A stretch of DNA of 64,000 bases from Aliarcobacter sp. (GTDB taxonomy: Bacteria > Campylobacterota > Campylobacteria > Campylobacterales > Arcobacteraceae), in the NCBI GenBank assembly GCA_028689025.1, contig JAQTXA010000009.1, positions 1 to 64,000 of the forward strand, read 5' to 3'. The translations under genes were made by a program, and so were the position numbers. Under the pieces are notes generated by a model. That model searched no databases. It had not been told where the DNA came from and saw nothing but the letters and a program-made list of their open reading frames with translations. The number at the start of each line of letters is the position of its first letter. Position 1 is the stretch's first letter. Below are positions 41,313-49,874 of this stretch, in pieces.

Positions 41313-41388
41313 GACCCTGTCGTCTAGTGGCCAAGGACGTCTGGATTTCCTCCAGAACACGCAAGTTCGAATCTTGCTGGGGTCGCCA
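41313..41388 (+). tRNA. tRNA-Glu (UUC)
   Basis: A complete 76-nt cloverleaf with encoded CCA. Acceptor GACCCTG pairs with TGGGGTC (with G-T at the base), the anticodon stem is TCTGG/CCAGA around loop ATTTCCT with anticodon TTC, and the T-arm is GCAAG-TTCGAAT-CTTGC. The D-arm begins TCGTCTAGTGG as in other tRNA-Glu genes. Its 3' 46 bases are repeated at the far end of the integrated element, so this gene is a hybrid: 5' part from the host and 3' part brought in by the element. Confidence 0.96.
41343..41388 (+). repeat. attL (tRNA 3' end copy)
   Basis: Left attachment repeat from the anticodon stem to the CCA end of tRNA-Glu. It matches 44 of 46 bases with 49829-49874. The two differences are 41364 (A, T at the other end) and 41374 (T, A at the other end), which pair with each other in the T-stem. 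Confidence 0.95.
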
Positions 41389-41463: not shown

Positions 41464-41691
41464 TTAAAAAAACATACTTATTAATAAAATATAAATTTTT
41501 TATATTAATAATAATTTTTAAGTTACTAAATTTAAACCTCACTGCATATAGAATTATTTAATGTAATTCAATAAATTTTACTACACATAGAAGCCAATTT
41601 TTAGGCACTTTTTCTACTTTTTCAATTGTTGATTAAACTTTTAAAACTTTATATACTTGATTAGTTTTTAAATTAGAGGATAAGAGCAATA

Positions 41692-41958
41692 ATGTATAAC
41701 AATGAAAAAGAGTTAACTAAGATTTTTATTATTGAAAAAATCAATGAAAAATTTAAGAAATATAAATATGCTATTGCTTTTCGACCTCAAATTGCTACGG
41801 TAGTAATTTCTACAAGATATGCGAATCTTATACATTTAAGAGAAACGAATCAATTGCCTTGGAGAGATTTTGGTGGATTACATCTTTATACTAAAAGTGA
41901 TATTGCTGATTATATATTAAAAAATATTGGCAAAAAAAACTTTAAGATTTTAAAATAA
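41692..41958 (+). CDS. Small helix-turn-helix/excisionase-like protein
   Basis: The 88-residue basic protein has a C-terminal segment (TRYANLIHLRETNQLPWRDFGGLHLYTKSDIADYIL, about residues 44-79) of the AlpA/HTH_17 type: a helix-turn-helix, then a glycine turn and an aromatic wing leading to a DIxxYI helix. It could be the excisionase (recombination directionality factor), since it is the first gene next to attL. The ribosome site AGAGGA lies 14 bp upstream of the ATG. It resembles in plan, not in sequence, the HTH protein at 44957. Confidence 0.6.
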   Translation: MYNNEKELTKIFIIEKINEKFKKYKYAIAFRPQIATVVISTRYANLIHLRETNQLPWRDFGGLHLYTKSDIADYILKNIGKKNFKILK

Positions 41959-42119
41959 TGGAAGGAGCTACCGAAGTAACTCTTTTTAGTTAGTTTGGCG
42001 ACTAATTAGGGCAATTATAACAAATATCTAAATAAATATCAAGCTTTTAATCCAATTTTCTTTTCAAAAAAAAATCAACTTAAGTGTTGAGGATAAAGTA
42101 TTGTCTAAAAAACTACATA

Positions 42120-42665
42120 AAGCGGTAGAGTATAAGGACTGCACAGTAAGGTGAAACCCTGCGATAAAATTAAATACTTATACAAGGTGAGAATGAACTC
42201 ACCGAAAACAATCACAGCCAAATAAGAGACCAAATCAGCAAGGTGTGAGGAAGTGTATGTGGTACGATTCACCTTGGAGATGCCCGTTCATCTGCGAAAG
42301 CAGTAGCAAGGACACTCCTATAGATTTACCAGTTAATATATAAAACAGAGGTTTTTAAATTAGTAGTAATACTAATACTGGATTTATTAAAGATATAGGT
42401 TACTAGATAAGGGGAACCGTCTAGTGTAATTGTGTTGTAGATTAAGAGCTGAACAATAATCTACTTAAGTCGTAAGCGAAAGTCCTGCAAAAGCCGTGTC
42501 ATTTGTAACTTTTAGACTAACTTGTCCTGTACTATTTTGTTAAATCCAAAGTAGTACAAGGGCAAGTTGTCTCCGCTCTTGAGCCATTCCCTACCATATC
42601 ATTTGAACTTAGCCAAAGGCGAACGGCAAGATTAACTTAAAAGAGCGGGGACAACTGAGACAAAA
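42120..42665 (+). ncRNA. Large densely structured non-coding RNA candidate
   Basis: The 765-bp gap has no credible ORF but carries at least nine perfect or near-perfect helices in order: GGTGAG/CTCACC (42186-42203), CAAGGTG/CACCTTG (42239-42276), CTGC-GAAA-GCAG with a GNRA tetraloop (42292-42303), CCTATA/TATAGG (42317-42399) enclosing TAGTA/TACTA (42361-42374), ACTAGA/TCTAGT (42402-42425), GTAGATTA/TAATCTAC (42437-42464), CTTGTCC-TGTACTA with TAGTACAAGGGCAAG (42521-42566), and a 16-bp outer stem (42565-42580 with 42641-42656). G+C is higher than in its flanks. The mismatches in the two longest stems are G-U wobbles only if the plus strand is the RNA. I cannot assign a family; ORF-less group II intron remnants and large ornate RNAs (GOLLD/ROOL type) are alternatives. 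Confidence 0.65.
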
Positions 42666-42723
42666 AAGGTGGAAGAAAAATCTAAATATCTTTCTAAATA
42701 ATTGAGAAATAATTTGTAAAATT

Positions 42724-43080
42724 TTATTTTTCAATTCCATATCTTTTATACCAATCAGTAGAGCAAAACTCAACTAGCATATTTTCATCATTATCTAAAG
42801 AGTATAAATATTCATCATTTGGATATTTTTCTCTTAGGATTCTTATAGTTTTATTTACAAAATTAAAATGCTCTTTTATTTCCTTTGGTGTTGGGTCATA
42901 AATACTTAAATTGTTTAATATACCTTTTGTTTTGTCGATAGCTCTTTGTTCTTCTGTTACAAAGTCTAAAAATGTATTAGTTCTTTCCTTTCCGTGTCTA
43001 ACTTTTTTACTCTCCATAAACTCTAAATACTCTTTATAATTAAAAACCTCTTTAGGTTGAGAATTTGGAATAGCTGTCAT
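42724..43080 (-). CDS. Unknown element protein, paralog B of 43934-44287
   Basis: The soluble, charged protein of 118 residues contains SQPKEVFNYKEYLEFMESKK, YDPTPKEIKEHFNFVNKTIR and ends FCSTDWYKRYGIEK. The same segments occur in the first gene of this operon; the pair are roughly 85% identical by eye, diverging in the middle (residues 46-60). I know no family for it. It is the last gene of a four-gene minus-strand unit, 11 bp after the 113-residue protein, with an AAGGAG site. Confidence 0.75.
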   Translation of the reverse strand: MTAIPNSQPKEVFNYKEYLEFMESKKVRHGKERTNTFLDFVTEEQRAIDKTKGILNNLSIYDPTPKEIKEHFNFVNKTIRILREKYPNDEYLYSLDNDENMLVEFCSTDWYKRYGIEK

Positions 43081-43933: not shown

Positions 43934-44287
43934 TTATTTTTCAATTCCATATCTTTTATACCAATCTGTAGAGCAAAACTCAACTAGCATATTTTCATTA
44001 TTATCTAAAGAATATAAATATTCATCATTTGGATATTTTTCTCTTAACACTCTTATAGTTTTATTTACAAAATTAAAATGCTCTTTTATTTCTTTTGGTG
44101 TTGGGTCATAAGAGCTAATATCTTCAATACCTTTTTCATTGTCTGCTCTTTGTTGTTCTTCTGTTACAAAGTCTAAAAGTGTATTAGTTCTTTCTTTTGC
44201 GTGTCTAACTTTTTTACTCTCCATAAACTCTAAATACTCTTTATAATTAAAAACCTCTTTAGGTTGAGAATTTGATTTATTTGGCAT
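43934..44287 (-). CDS. Unknown element protein, paralog A of 42724-43080
   Basis: This 117-residue soluble protein is the first gene of the minus-strand operon and a near duplicate of its last gene; both share SQPKEVFNYKEYLEFMESKK and the C-terminus FCSTDWYKRYGIEK. DNA identity is also high across the whole gene. The intervening genes (lipoprotein and 113-residue protein) are single copy. The arrangement looks like a duplication that left one copy at each end of the unit. Confidence 0.75.
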   Translation of the reverse strand: MPNKSNSQPKEVFNYKEYLEFMESKKVRHAKERTNTLLDFVTEEQQRADNEKGIEDISSYDPTPKEIKEHFNFVNKTIRVLREKYPNDEYLYSLDNNENMLVEFCSTDWYKRYGIEK

Positions 44288-48566: not shown

Positions 48567-49691
48567 TTAAAAAGGTAGTTGCTCAACAAAAACTTTTCCA
48601 CTATCAGGGGCAAGTTTTGCGTACCTTAAAGTCATTTTTATATCTTTATGATTCATTAGCTTTTGAATAGTAAATATTGGAGTTCCGATAATTGCTAAAT
48701 GACTTGCAAAAGTGTGTCTTAATGAATGAAATACAACTTTGTTCTTTCTATCTGTAAAGTCTATACCATCATTAAAAAGCTCATCTAATACTTTTCTTAA
48801 TCTTCTTTGTGGATTTGAAATAAATAGCTTATCATTCATCTTTAGATCAACTACTCTTTTTTCTAAAAGAGCTTTTAAATCAACTGTTAAAAAAGCTTTA
48901 TATGTACTATTATTTTTAAAATCTTTTAAAGTAAGTAAATTATGTGTAAAGTCAATATCTTTTTTCTGTATATTTAAAAGAGTTTCTAATCTTCCACCTG
49001 TTTTTAATGCAAGATTAAAAAGTAAAAAAAGAGTTTCATCATTTTTTGAATTTTCAAATAATATTTTTATTTCATTTTGCGTTAAAAATCTTTCTCTTGC
49101 ATTATCTATATCTAACAATTTAATATATTTTGAGAAATCATTTTTTATATAGTCATTCTTAAAAGCATATTTTATAAGAGCCTTTAAAAAGTTAAGTATG
49201 TTATTGATTGATTTATCAGCTAATAATTCTTTTTTTGAAATGGATTTTGTATTTCTTAATAAAGTAGTAAATTTTTGTATCTCATCTTTTGTTATACTTT
49301 CAAAATCAAGATTTTTAAAAAAAGGTAACAAGTGGTTATTAAAATGTGATTTATCTGTAATTTTAGATTTTCCATTTTCTCTTAAATTAAAATATTCATC
49401 AGCAATAGTTTGAATAGATAAAATATTCTTTTTCTTTTTTTGAGCAATTGAGGGTGGTTCTTCACCTGTTCTTTGTTTTGTAATAATTTCATTTCTTAAT
49501 TGATTGCAATAAGCTTCTCTATATCCTTCTGAATATTTACCAACTTTAATTTCTTTATCTTTATTATTTTCATCTTTATATCTAATATAAAAAGTTTTAT
49601 CAATTTTATCATTAGTTGTAGTTTCTCTATAAAATATTCCACTAAATTTTGTATTTATTCTTTTTGAGTATGTTTTCTCTAAAATTCCCAC
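48567..49691 (-). CDS. int: Tyrosine site-specific recombinase (integrase)
   Basis: The 374-residue integrase has an N-terminal arm-binding/SAM-like region (residues 30-60 and 85-180) and a catalytic domain with R234 (TGGRLETL), H322-x-x-R325 (HSLRHTF), H348 (LMNHKDIK) and the nucleophile Y357 (TLRYAKLAP). It starts at GTG 49691, whose upstream sequence contains the right copy of the terminal TTCCCACCT repeat, and it reads away from attR toward the element centre. It catalyses insertion into the tRNA-Glu 3' end. Its gene is intact. Confidence 0.96.
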   Translation of the reverse strand: MGILEKTYSKRINTKFSGIFYRETTTNDKIDKTFYIRYKDENNKDKEIKVGKYSEGYREAYCNQLRNEIITKQRTGEEPPSIAQKKKKNILSIQTIADEYFNLRENGKSKITDKSHFNNHLLPFFKNLDFESITKDEIQKFTTLLRNTKSISKKELLADKSINNILNFLKALIKYAFKNDYIKNDFSKYIKLLDIDNARERFLTQNEIKILFENSKNDETLFLLFNLALKTGGRLETLLNIQKKDIDFTHNLLTLKDFKNNSTYKAFLTVDLKALLEKRVVDLKMNDKLFISNPQRRLRKVLDELFNDGIDFTDRKNKVVFHSLRHTFASHLAIIGTPIFTIQKLMNHKDIKMTLRYAKLAPDSGKVFVEQLPF

Positions 49692-49828: not shown

Positions 49829-49874
49829 GGATTTCCTCCAGAACACGCATGTTCGAATCATGCTGGGGTCGCCA
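49829..49874 (+). repeat. attR (displaced 3' half of host tRNA-Glu)
   Basis: Matches 41343-41388 in 44 of 46 positions, from the anticodon stem through CCA. Without a 5' half or promoter it is not a functional tRNA. Its T-stem reads GCATG/CATGC, against GCAAG/CTTGC in the working gene. Confidence 0.95.

Follow-up and report, generated by a model that had tools for sequence, protein, structure and literature searches.

A probable free-standing gene for a large structured noncoding RNA on integrative and conjugative elements of Campylobacterota

What is encoded in a G+C-rich and strongly folded gap between two open reading frames of a mobile island? This question is raised by a locus in the window analysed here, which comprises 64,000 nucleotides of contig JAQTXA010000009.1 of an Aliarcobacter sp. 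On its left the gap (41959-42723) is bordered by an 88-codon ORF (41692-41958) and on its right by a minus-strand ORF, which ends at 42724; the gap itself holds no ORF of annotated size. The longest plus-strand ORFs within the element comprise 24-49 codons in 14 homologs, and none of them is common in full. An earlier note on this DNA, made from the letters alone, had placed a densely folded noncoding RNA of roughly 550 nt at 42120-42665 and had pointed to its raised G+C content. The composition was confirmed: the G+C content of this stretch is 0.383, while the island as a whole has 0.252 and the window 0.268, and none of the 395 island windows of equal size is as rich. On the plus strand the folding energy is -156.4 kcal/mol (z -5.1 against shuffles), and the minus strand is also more stable than its shuffles (z -4.0). 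With the missing ORF, this fold and the covarying homologs described below, the folded noncoding RNA itself was confirmed as well. The explanation which in our view fits best overall, and which is very probably correct, is that a large structured noncoding RNA has its own free-standing gene here, carried on integrative and conjugative elements of Campylobacterota. For the RNA-gene part of this explanation, taken by itself, we have little doubt.

The limits first proposed turned out to be too narrow. The conserved body of the RNA spans 42055-42672 on the plus strand, as defined by the homologs L001-L014, alignment A3 and pair counts, and the unit begins further upstream. In order, the conserved unit would comprise a promoter, then either a 5' hairpin or a small ORF, next a hairpin whose loop reads UUUGGCGAC, followed by the body, with GAGACAAAAAAGGUGG as a sharp 3' end. 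A candidate promoter TTGATT-N17-TATACT is located at 41629-41657 (plus strand); its score of 9/12 is alone not above shuffle expectation. At the same position TTTACA-N17-TATACT is found in most of ten aligned relatives and TTGACA..TATAAT in the distant homolog G514. The order upstream of the body in the ten aligned copies is a promoter-like block, a long hairpin (missing in G091), a GGAG(G) box and a hairpin with the loop motif GUUUGGCGAC. In the window copy, the long hairpin is replaced by an 88-aa ORF (41692-41958, plus strand) between promoter and body, which is helix-turn-helix/AlpA-like by eye and gives no match in Pfam. Other copies have at this place either another AlpA-like ORF or a hairpin region that is non-coding, and in three copies a different AlpA-like ORF lies downstream of the long hairpin. 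Hairpin 2 (41986-42005, plus strand) exposes the loop UUGGCG, an instance of the GUUUGGCGAC motif, which is kept in the type I copies (the class of the window RNA), in the distant homolog G209 and in a second RNA class. The stems around it are unrelated in sequence between the classes and the distant copies, yet able to pair. Hairpin 3 (UCAACUUAAGUGUUGA, 42075-42090, plus strand) is common to the second class, too. As a side observation, the sequence GAGRAUAAAGUAWUGUC in the common leader (42089-42105 and equivalent positions) resembles a ribosome-binding site with a start codon; the reading frames behind it are 3-16 codons long and not conserved.

Within the body, where all features are on the plus strand, helix 2 (42130-42136 / 42177-42183) and helix 3 (42186-42191 / 42198-42203) are both 100% paired, each with three pairs changed on both sides. 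They are followed by the most conserved core, AGACC..GUGAG..CRAUUC..GGAGAUGCCCG (42224-42286; alignment A5, model R2), with its helix 42239-42245 / 42270-42276. The GNRA hairpin noticed earlier, CUGC-GAAA-GCAG, is present at 42292-42303 with 2/4 pairs changed on both sides, but the tetraloop is not conserved, and most relatives carry an A/T loop on the same covarying stem instead. A long-range helix (42306-42310 / 42521-42525) closes a central multibranch domain and is 100% paired with one-sided changes only. For this domain, pair counts on A3 give the helix 42311-42315 / 42432-42436, helices nested within 42311-42436 (42317-42333 / 42377-42399 and 42359-42376) and a hairpin at 42437-42464 (42437-42444 / 42457-42464). 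A further hairpin (42401-42426) carries the motif UAAGGGnnRCC, and both motif and fold are alike in G209, G291 and G514. Downstream, a 12-bp hairpin (42528-42558) shows 7/12 pairs changed on both sides. The terminal stem (42565-42580 / 42641-42656) encloses a variable loop (whole domain 42565-42656), for which three alternative types exist in relatives. This is the 16-bp stem that had been described as closing the RNA; it exists, but it closes the 3' terminal domain only.

Conservation ends with an unpaired 3' tail GAGACAAAAAAGGUGG (42657-42672), which reads GAGAUAAAAAAGAUGG, GAGAGACAAAAGGCGG or GAGAUAAAGAAGAUGG in distant homologs, and just beyond the tail the flanking DNA differs in most copies. 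As there is no terminator-like site at the 3' end, this end of the RNA is inferred only from the stop of conservation. Pairing of the tail with the ACC or the UAAGGG-hairpin strands was considered and dropped, as the four tail variants covary with neither. A scaffold that stops sharply at GGUGG, with variable sequence beyond, could be imagined as a guide-type RNA, whose target-matching part would lie 3' of the conserved tail and which would work with a nuclease or recombinase in trans. Variable sequence past a gene end is expected anyway, though, and with neighbourhoods lacking a common nuclease and no match to HEARO we regard a guide function as extremely unlikely.

A nucleotide search of 104 Arcobacteraceae genomes detected intact copies in 14 of them (window included), distributed over four genus groups and 79-96% identical to the window copy over the matched part; one further copy, G001b, is truncated. 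On alignment A3, a structure of 113 pairs was compared with shuffles. Its cells are paired to 96.8%, those of the shuffles to 91.0%; changes on both sides affect 31 pairs, against 17.5 in shuffles; double-change cells number 102 rather than 33.5, and the covariation score is 0.244, with 0.128 for the shuffles. None of 500 shuffles reaches any of these values for pairing, double changes or score, and sliding the partners by 1-3 columns lowers pairing to 33-44% (at most 43.6%). Since the 113-pair structure was derived from 12 of the sequences also contained in A3, the core helix, compared across three families, is the more independent test. Here (42239-42245 / 42270-42276 on alignment A5), 77/77 cells are paired with 13 double-change cells versus 3.0 in shuffles, whereas slid versions are 26-55% paired. 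The sample comprises 14-18 sequences, many of them closely related, and therefore some helices rest on one-sided changes. An alignment of homologs devoid of covariation would, according to the earlier note, have spoken against the RNA; covariation is clear both on A3 and in the core helix.

Helices predicted on both strands contain 52 G-U cells in the plus-strand reading compared to 16 A-C cells, which favours a plus-strand RNA over folded DNA and bears out the strand deduced earlier from wobble pairs. This asymmetry has to be set against a DNA-level element, namely a transfer or replication origin (oriT/sso-like) at which single-stranded DNA of a conjugative element would fold. An origin would suit the recurrence of the locus in elements with T4SS genes, the position of the G514 copy between VirB-like and relaxase/Rep genes and the well-folded minus strand. 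It agrees less with the strand-asymmetric G-U tolerance, with the conserved promoter-like block upstream, with the persistence of the RNA in islands where no transfer genes are seen nearby and with a related second class that stands alone in a tRNA cluster, so that we judge an origin to be very unlikely.

The plus-strand RNA was also found outside the Arcobacteraceae. A covariance model (R1) built from a core of 186 positions finds three more copies in two other families of the order (E 6e-8 to 5e-6), and a fourth, G514, was matched at E 4.5e-5; these distant homologs are G209, G514, G291 and G360, from two families outside the Arcobacteraceae. A second model (R2), built from the 63-nt core, scores G209 and G291 at E near 1e-15, both sequences being part of its training set. 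Three distant RNAs folded singly yield z-values of -6.0, -5.9 and -5.6, and they form the same hairpin, in which two bases are looped out, two pairs are G-C and the loop is short. The order of the unit is kept in the distant homologs and the sequence is different, as exemplified by G514: TTGACA..TATAAT, long 5' stem, core, UAAUGGCUACC hairpin, long hairpin, terminal stem and the tail GAGAUAAAGAAGAUGG. Beyond genomes of Campylobacterota, the search covered viral and plasmid collections and one exact-pattern scan of genome contigs. The latter returned four copy-bearing contigs named Arcobacter, Arcobacter cryaerophilus and Aliarcobacter, while blastn against plasmid and phage collections and pattern scans of IMG/VR gave no match.

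Comparison with known RNA families was done by cmscan with all 4227 models of Rfam 15. At gathering thresholds, tRNA was the only family reported for the whole window, and at E<=10 the region 41900-42900 gave only chance-level matches to unrelated families. In three distant homologs, at E<=5, nothing within the RNA was at or near the gathering score of any family, and three copies of the second class matched no RNA family besides tRNA at or above the gathering score. Profiles of GOLLD, ROOL and OLE are included in Rfam (PMC12286853); none of these three covariance models is matched by the body or by these distant homologs, and the same applies to the group II intron models (domain 1-4, domain 5-6) and the group I intron model. 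For HEARO / IscB-type RNA there is neither a model match nor a gene family common to the neighbourhoods. A significant match to a known class, named in advance as the result that would overturn the idea of a new one, was obtained at neither gathering nor permissive thresholds. Compared via Rfam 15, which includes the 224 candidates of Weinberg et al. (2017) only as far as they were taken into it, the RNA appears to be previously undescribed, and the guess of a new class is supported by this result together with the covariation in homologs.

The large size, the multibranched body and the invariant core are features that a degenerate self-splicing intron or another ribozyme would share. We consider this quite unlikely, since Rfam searches up to E 10 bring up neither group I nor group II introns nor a ribozyme family, the flanks vary on both sides with no conserved exon junction, and none of the neighbouring genes was recognised as a reverse transcriptase or homing endonuclease. 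GAGACC and AAGAUAUAG bring group I intron elements to mind, but this likeness was likewise dropped, as no model matched and AAGAUAUAG is missing in G291.

Bacterial RNA classes of such size and complexity are rarely found anew. GOLLD, ROOL and OLE form homo-oligomeric RNA assemblies, their structures were solved only recently and their functions are still open. The window RNA has the large, complex, covarying fold of a large ornate RNA and is carried by mobile elements. In setting and size, the resemblance to GOLLD and ROOL suggested earlier is supported, but membership of either family is not, given the missing Rfam match. Like GOLLD, it is a large ornate RNA of mobile elements, often near tRNAs, and conservation is unequal between its 3' and 5' parts (PMC12286853). 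Unlike GOLLD, its carriers in Campylobacterota are integrase islands, ICEs and a conjugative plasmid, and the searches made of phage records and IMG/VR gave no match. With ROOL it shares a large complex fold, a mobile-element setting and no known obligatory protein partner (PMC12286853), whereas its own motifs are the GUUUGGCGAC loop, the UAAGGGnnRCC hairpin and the GAGAYAAARAAGRYGG tail. OLE is an ornate RNA of about 600 nt as well, but it belongs to a membrane-associated RNP of Gram-positive extremophiles/anaerobes (PMC9723947, PMC10898510). Further parallels are drawn by description and not by sequence: the lncRNA of the Lactobacillus salivarius megaplasmid is a long ncRNA of a large mobile replicon from other bacteria (PMC5643018), and a Vibrio phage and its satellite, likewise mobile elements, make long ncRNAs in abundance, namely the ncRNA of phage ICP1 and the IIR transcript of PLE, both of unknown function (PMC7567579).

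The window copy is situated in an 8.5-kb integrase island bounded by 46-bp repeats of tRNA-Glu. The left attachment site attL (41343-41388, plus strand) is the 3' end of tRNA-Glu(TTC) at 41313-41388, and attR (49829-49874, plus strand) is a second copy of this tRNA end; the 46-nt direct repeats are 96% identical. Beside the right repeat, a tyrosine integrase is encoded on the minus strand (48567-49691; Pfam PF00589, 3.9e-23). The island retains T4SS (VirB5-like) and TrbL/VirB6 genes and is perhaps a decayed conjugative element. Two near-identical ORFs, 42724-43080 and 43934-44287 (118 and 117 aa), have DNA identity of 93-95% over 185 and 140 nt and enclose two others, one of 113 aa and one lipoprotein-like; judging from the sequences, the near-identical pair is a recent internal duplication. 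The RNA is read inward from attL and lies between attL and the cargo. A mobile element beside a tRNA, as the earlier note had it, was thereby borne out, except that the tRNA serves as attachment site and does not form a tRNA array in the window copy.

The tRNA-Glu precedes the RNA in four copies (G000, G017, G005 and G001b), and a tyrosine integrase is encoded at most 12 kb away in 13 of 18 copies, with distances taken from coordinates. The copy in G514 adjoins genes for TrbL, a MobA-type relaxase and a Rep3 initiator, and one copy is carried by a conjugative plasmid. In Aliarcobacter and relatives the carriers are small integrase islands as well as conjugative elements, and restriction-modification or abortive-infection genes are present on many of them. 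Cargo nearby includes type I R-M methyltransferases (G017, G091), an Eco57I-type methyltransferase (G080), AbiE (G001), a TPR-S protein (G096) and, at the truncated copy G001b, a type IV restriction enzyme. In the neighbourhoods compared, no protein family accompanies all copies of the RNA. The main rival explanation, a cis-acting leader or antisense RNA that controls a convergent regulator or cargo genes of the element, has to be judged by these neighbours. The next gene is convergent and HTH-like in several ICE-like copies, one of them with a weak CI-repressor match; over all copies, though, it varies in orientation and identity (type I R-M, AbiE, methyltransferase, unknowns), and conservation ends at the tail, before any gene. 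Such control in cis or by antisense is therefore unlikely in our estimation.

For a free-standing gene, transcription would proceed inward from the promoter next to the attachment site and yield a transcript of about 0.6-1 kb with a compact multibranched body and an unpaired 3' tail. With less confidence, the product may be a trans-acting stable RNA or RNP scaffold, which would help the element to persist, to control its copy number or to become established in a new host; ornate RNAs of phages and plasmids have been suspected of a role of this kind. The leader held in common could act as the handle, and specificity could come from the bodies and terminal loops, which can be swapped. The lack of a universal partner protein fits a trans-acting or RNA-only function. 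We favour a trans-acting stable RNA because the unit is self-contained without a fixed gene neighbour and because the ncRNA of the L. salivarius megaplasmid affects copy number, which was lowered upon its deletion (PMC5643018). A trans-acting maintenance role is put forward here as a tentative suggestion.

The second RNA class (type II) was traced via short matches in other genomes. By DNA search it occurs at nine loci, and in eight of them the match extends over at least about 490 bases of the 691-base query. The genomes concerned are G083, G085, G092, G015, G011, G006, G067, G068 and G050 (sequences L015, L016, L017 and L075-L083). Where readable, its leader is common with that of the window RNA, comprising the long hairpin, the GUUUGGCGAC hairpin and a CAACUUAA..GUUGAG hairpin; its body differs. 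In G011 and G006, type II stands alone between tRNA-Leu and tRNA-Gly, and in the relative G029 only a few bases separate these tRNAs. The G083 copy has type I R-M and AbiE-like genes around it, by resemblance of their translations. Both classes might belong to a superfamily of modular mobile-element RNAs, an undescribed RNA machine with a common 5' leader and at least two unrelated-looking bodies beside an att site; this is conceivable, although we would lean against it at present. The leader of such a superfamily would consist of promoter, long hairpin, GUUUGGCGAC hairpin and CAACUUAA hairpin. A common leader with at least two alternative bodies makes comparative dissection possible, and the alignments and covariance models offer a direct route to more members and to probing plans.

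Some minor observations concern the exchange of DNA around these RNAs. Type II in G011 and G006 adjoins TTACTACA repeats, which may be integrase arm sites. G055, G080 and G096 (contexts L031, L036 and L039), from different genera, share DNA of more than 90% identity over 1.7-3.5 kb upstream of the RNA, and their cargo downstream of the RNA differs. Between G055 and G080 a breakpoint is located within the RNA at about position 401, and recombination seems to have swapped the 3' part of the RNA between them. The distant homologs G291 (L058, 5048-11547) and G360 (L059, 4869-11361) lie in the same small island with different right flanks, composed of an integrase, small ORFs, the RNA and two unknown genes. 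Relatives of these two genes seem to recur beside the second RNA class in G083 (L072).
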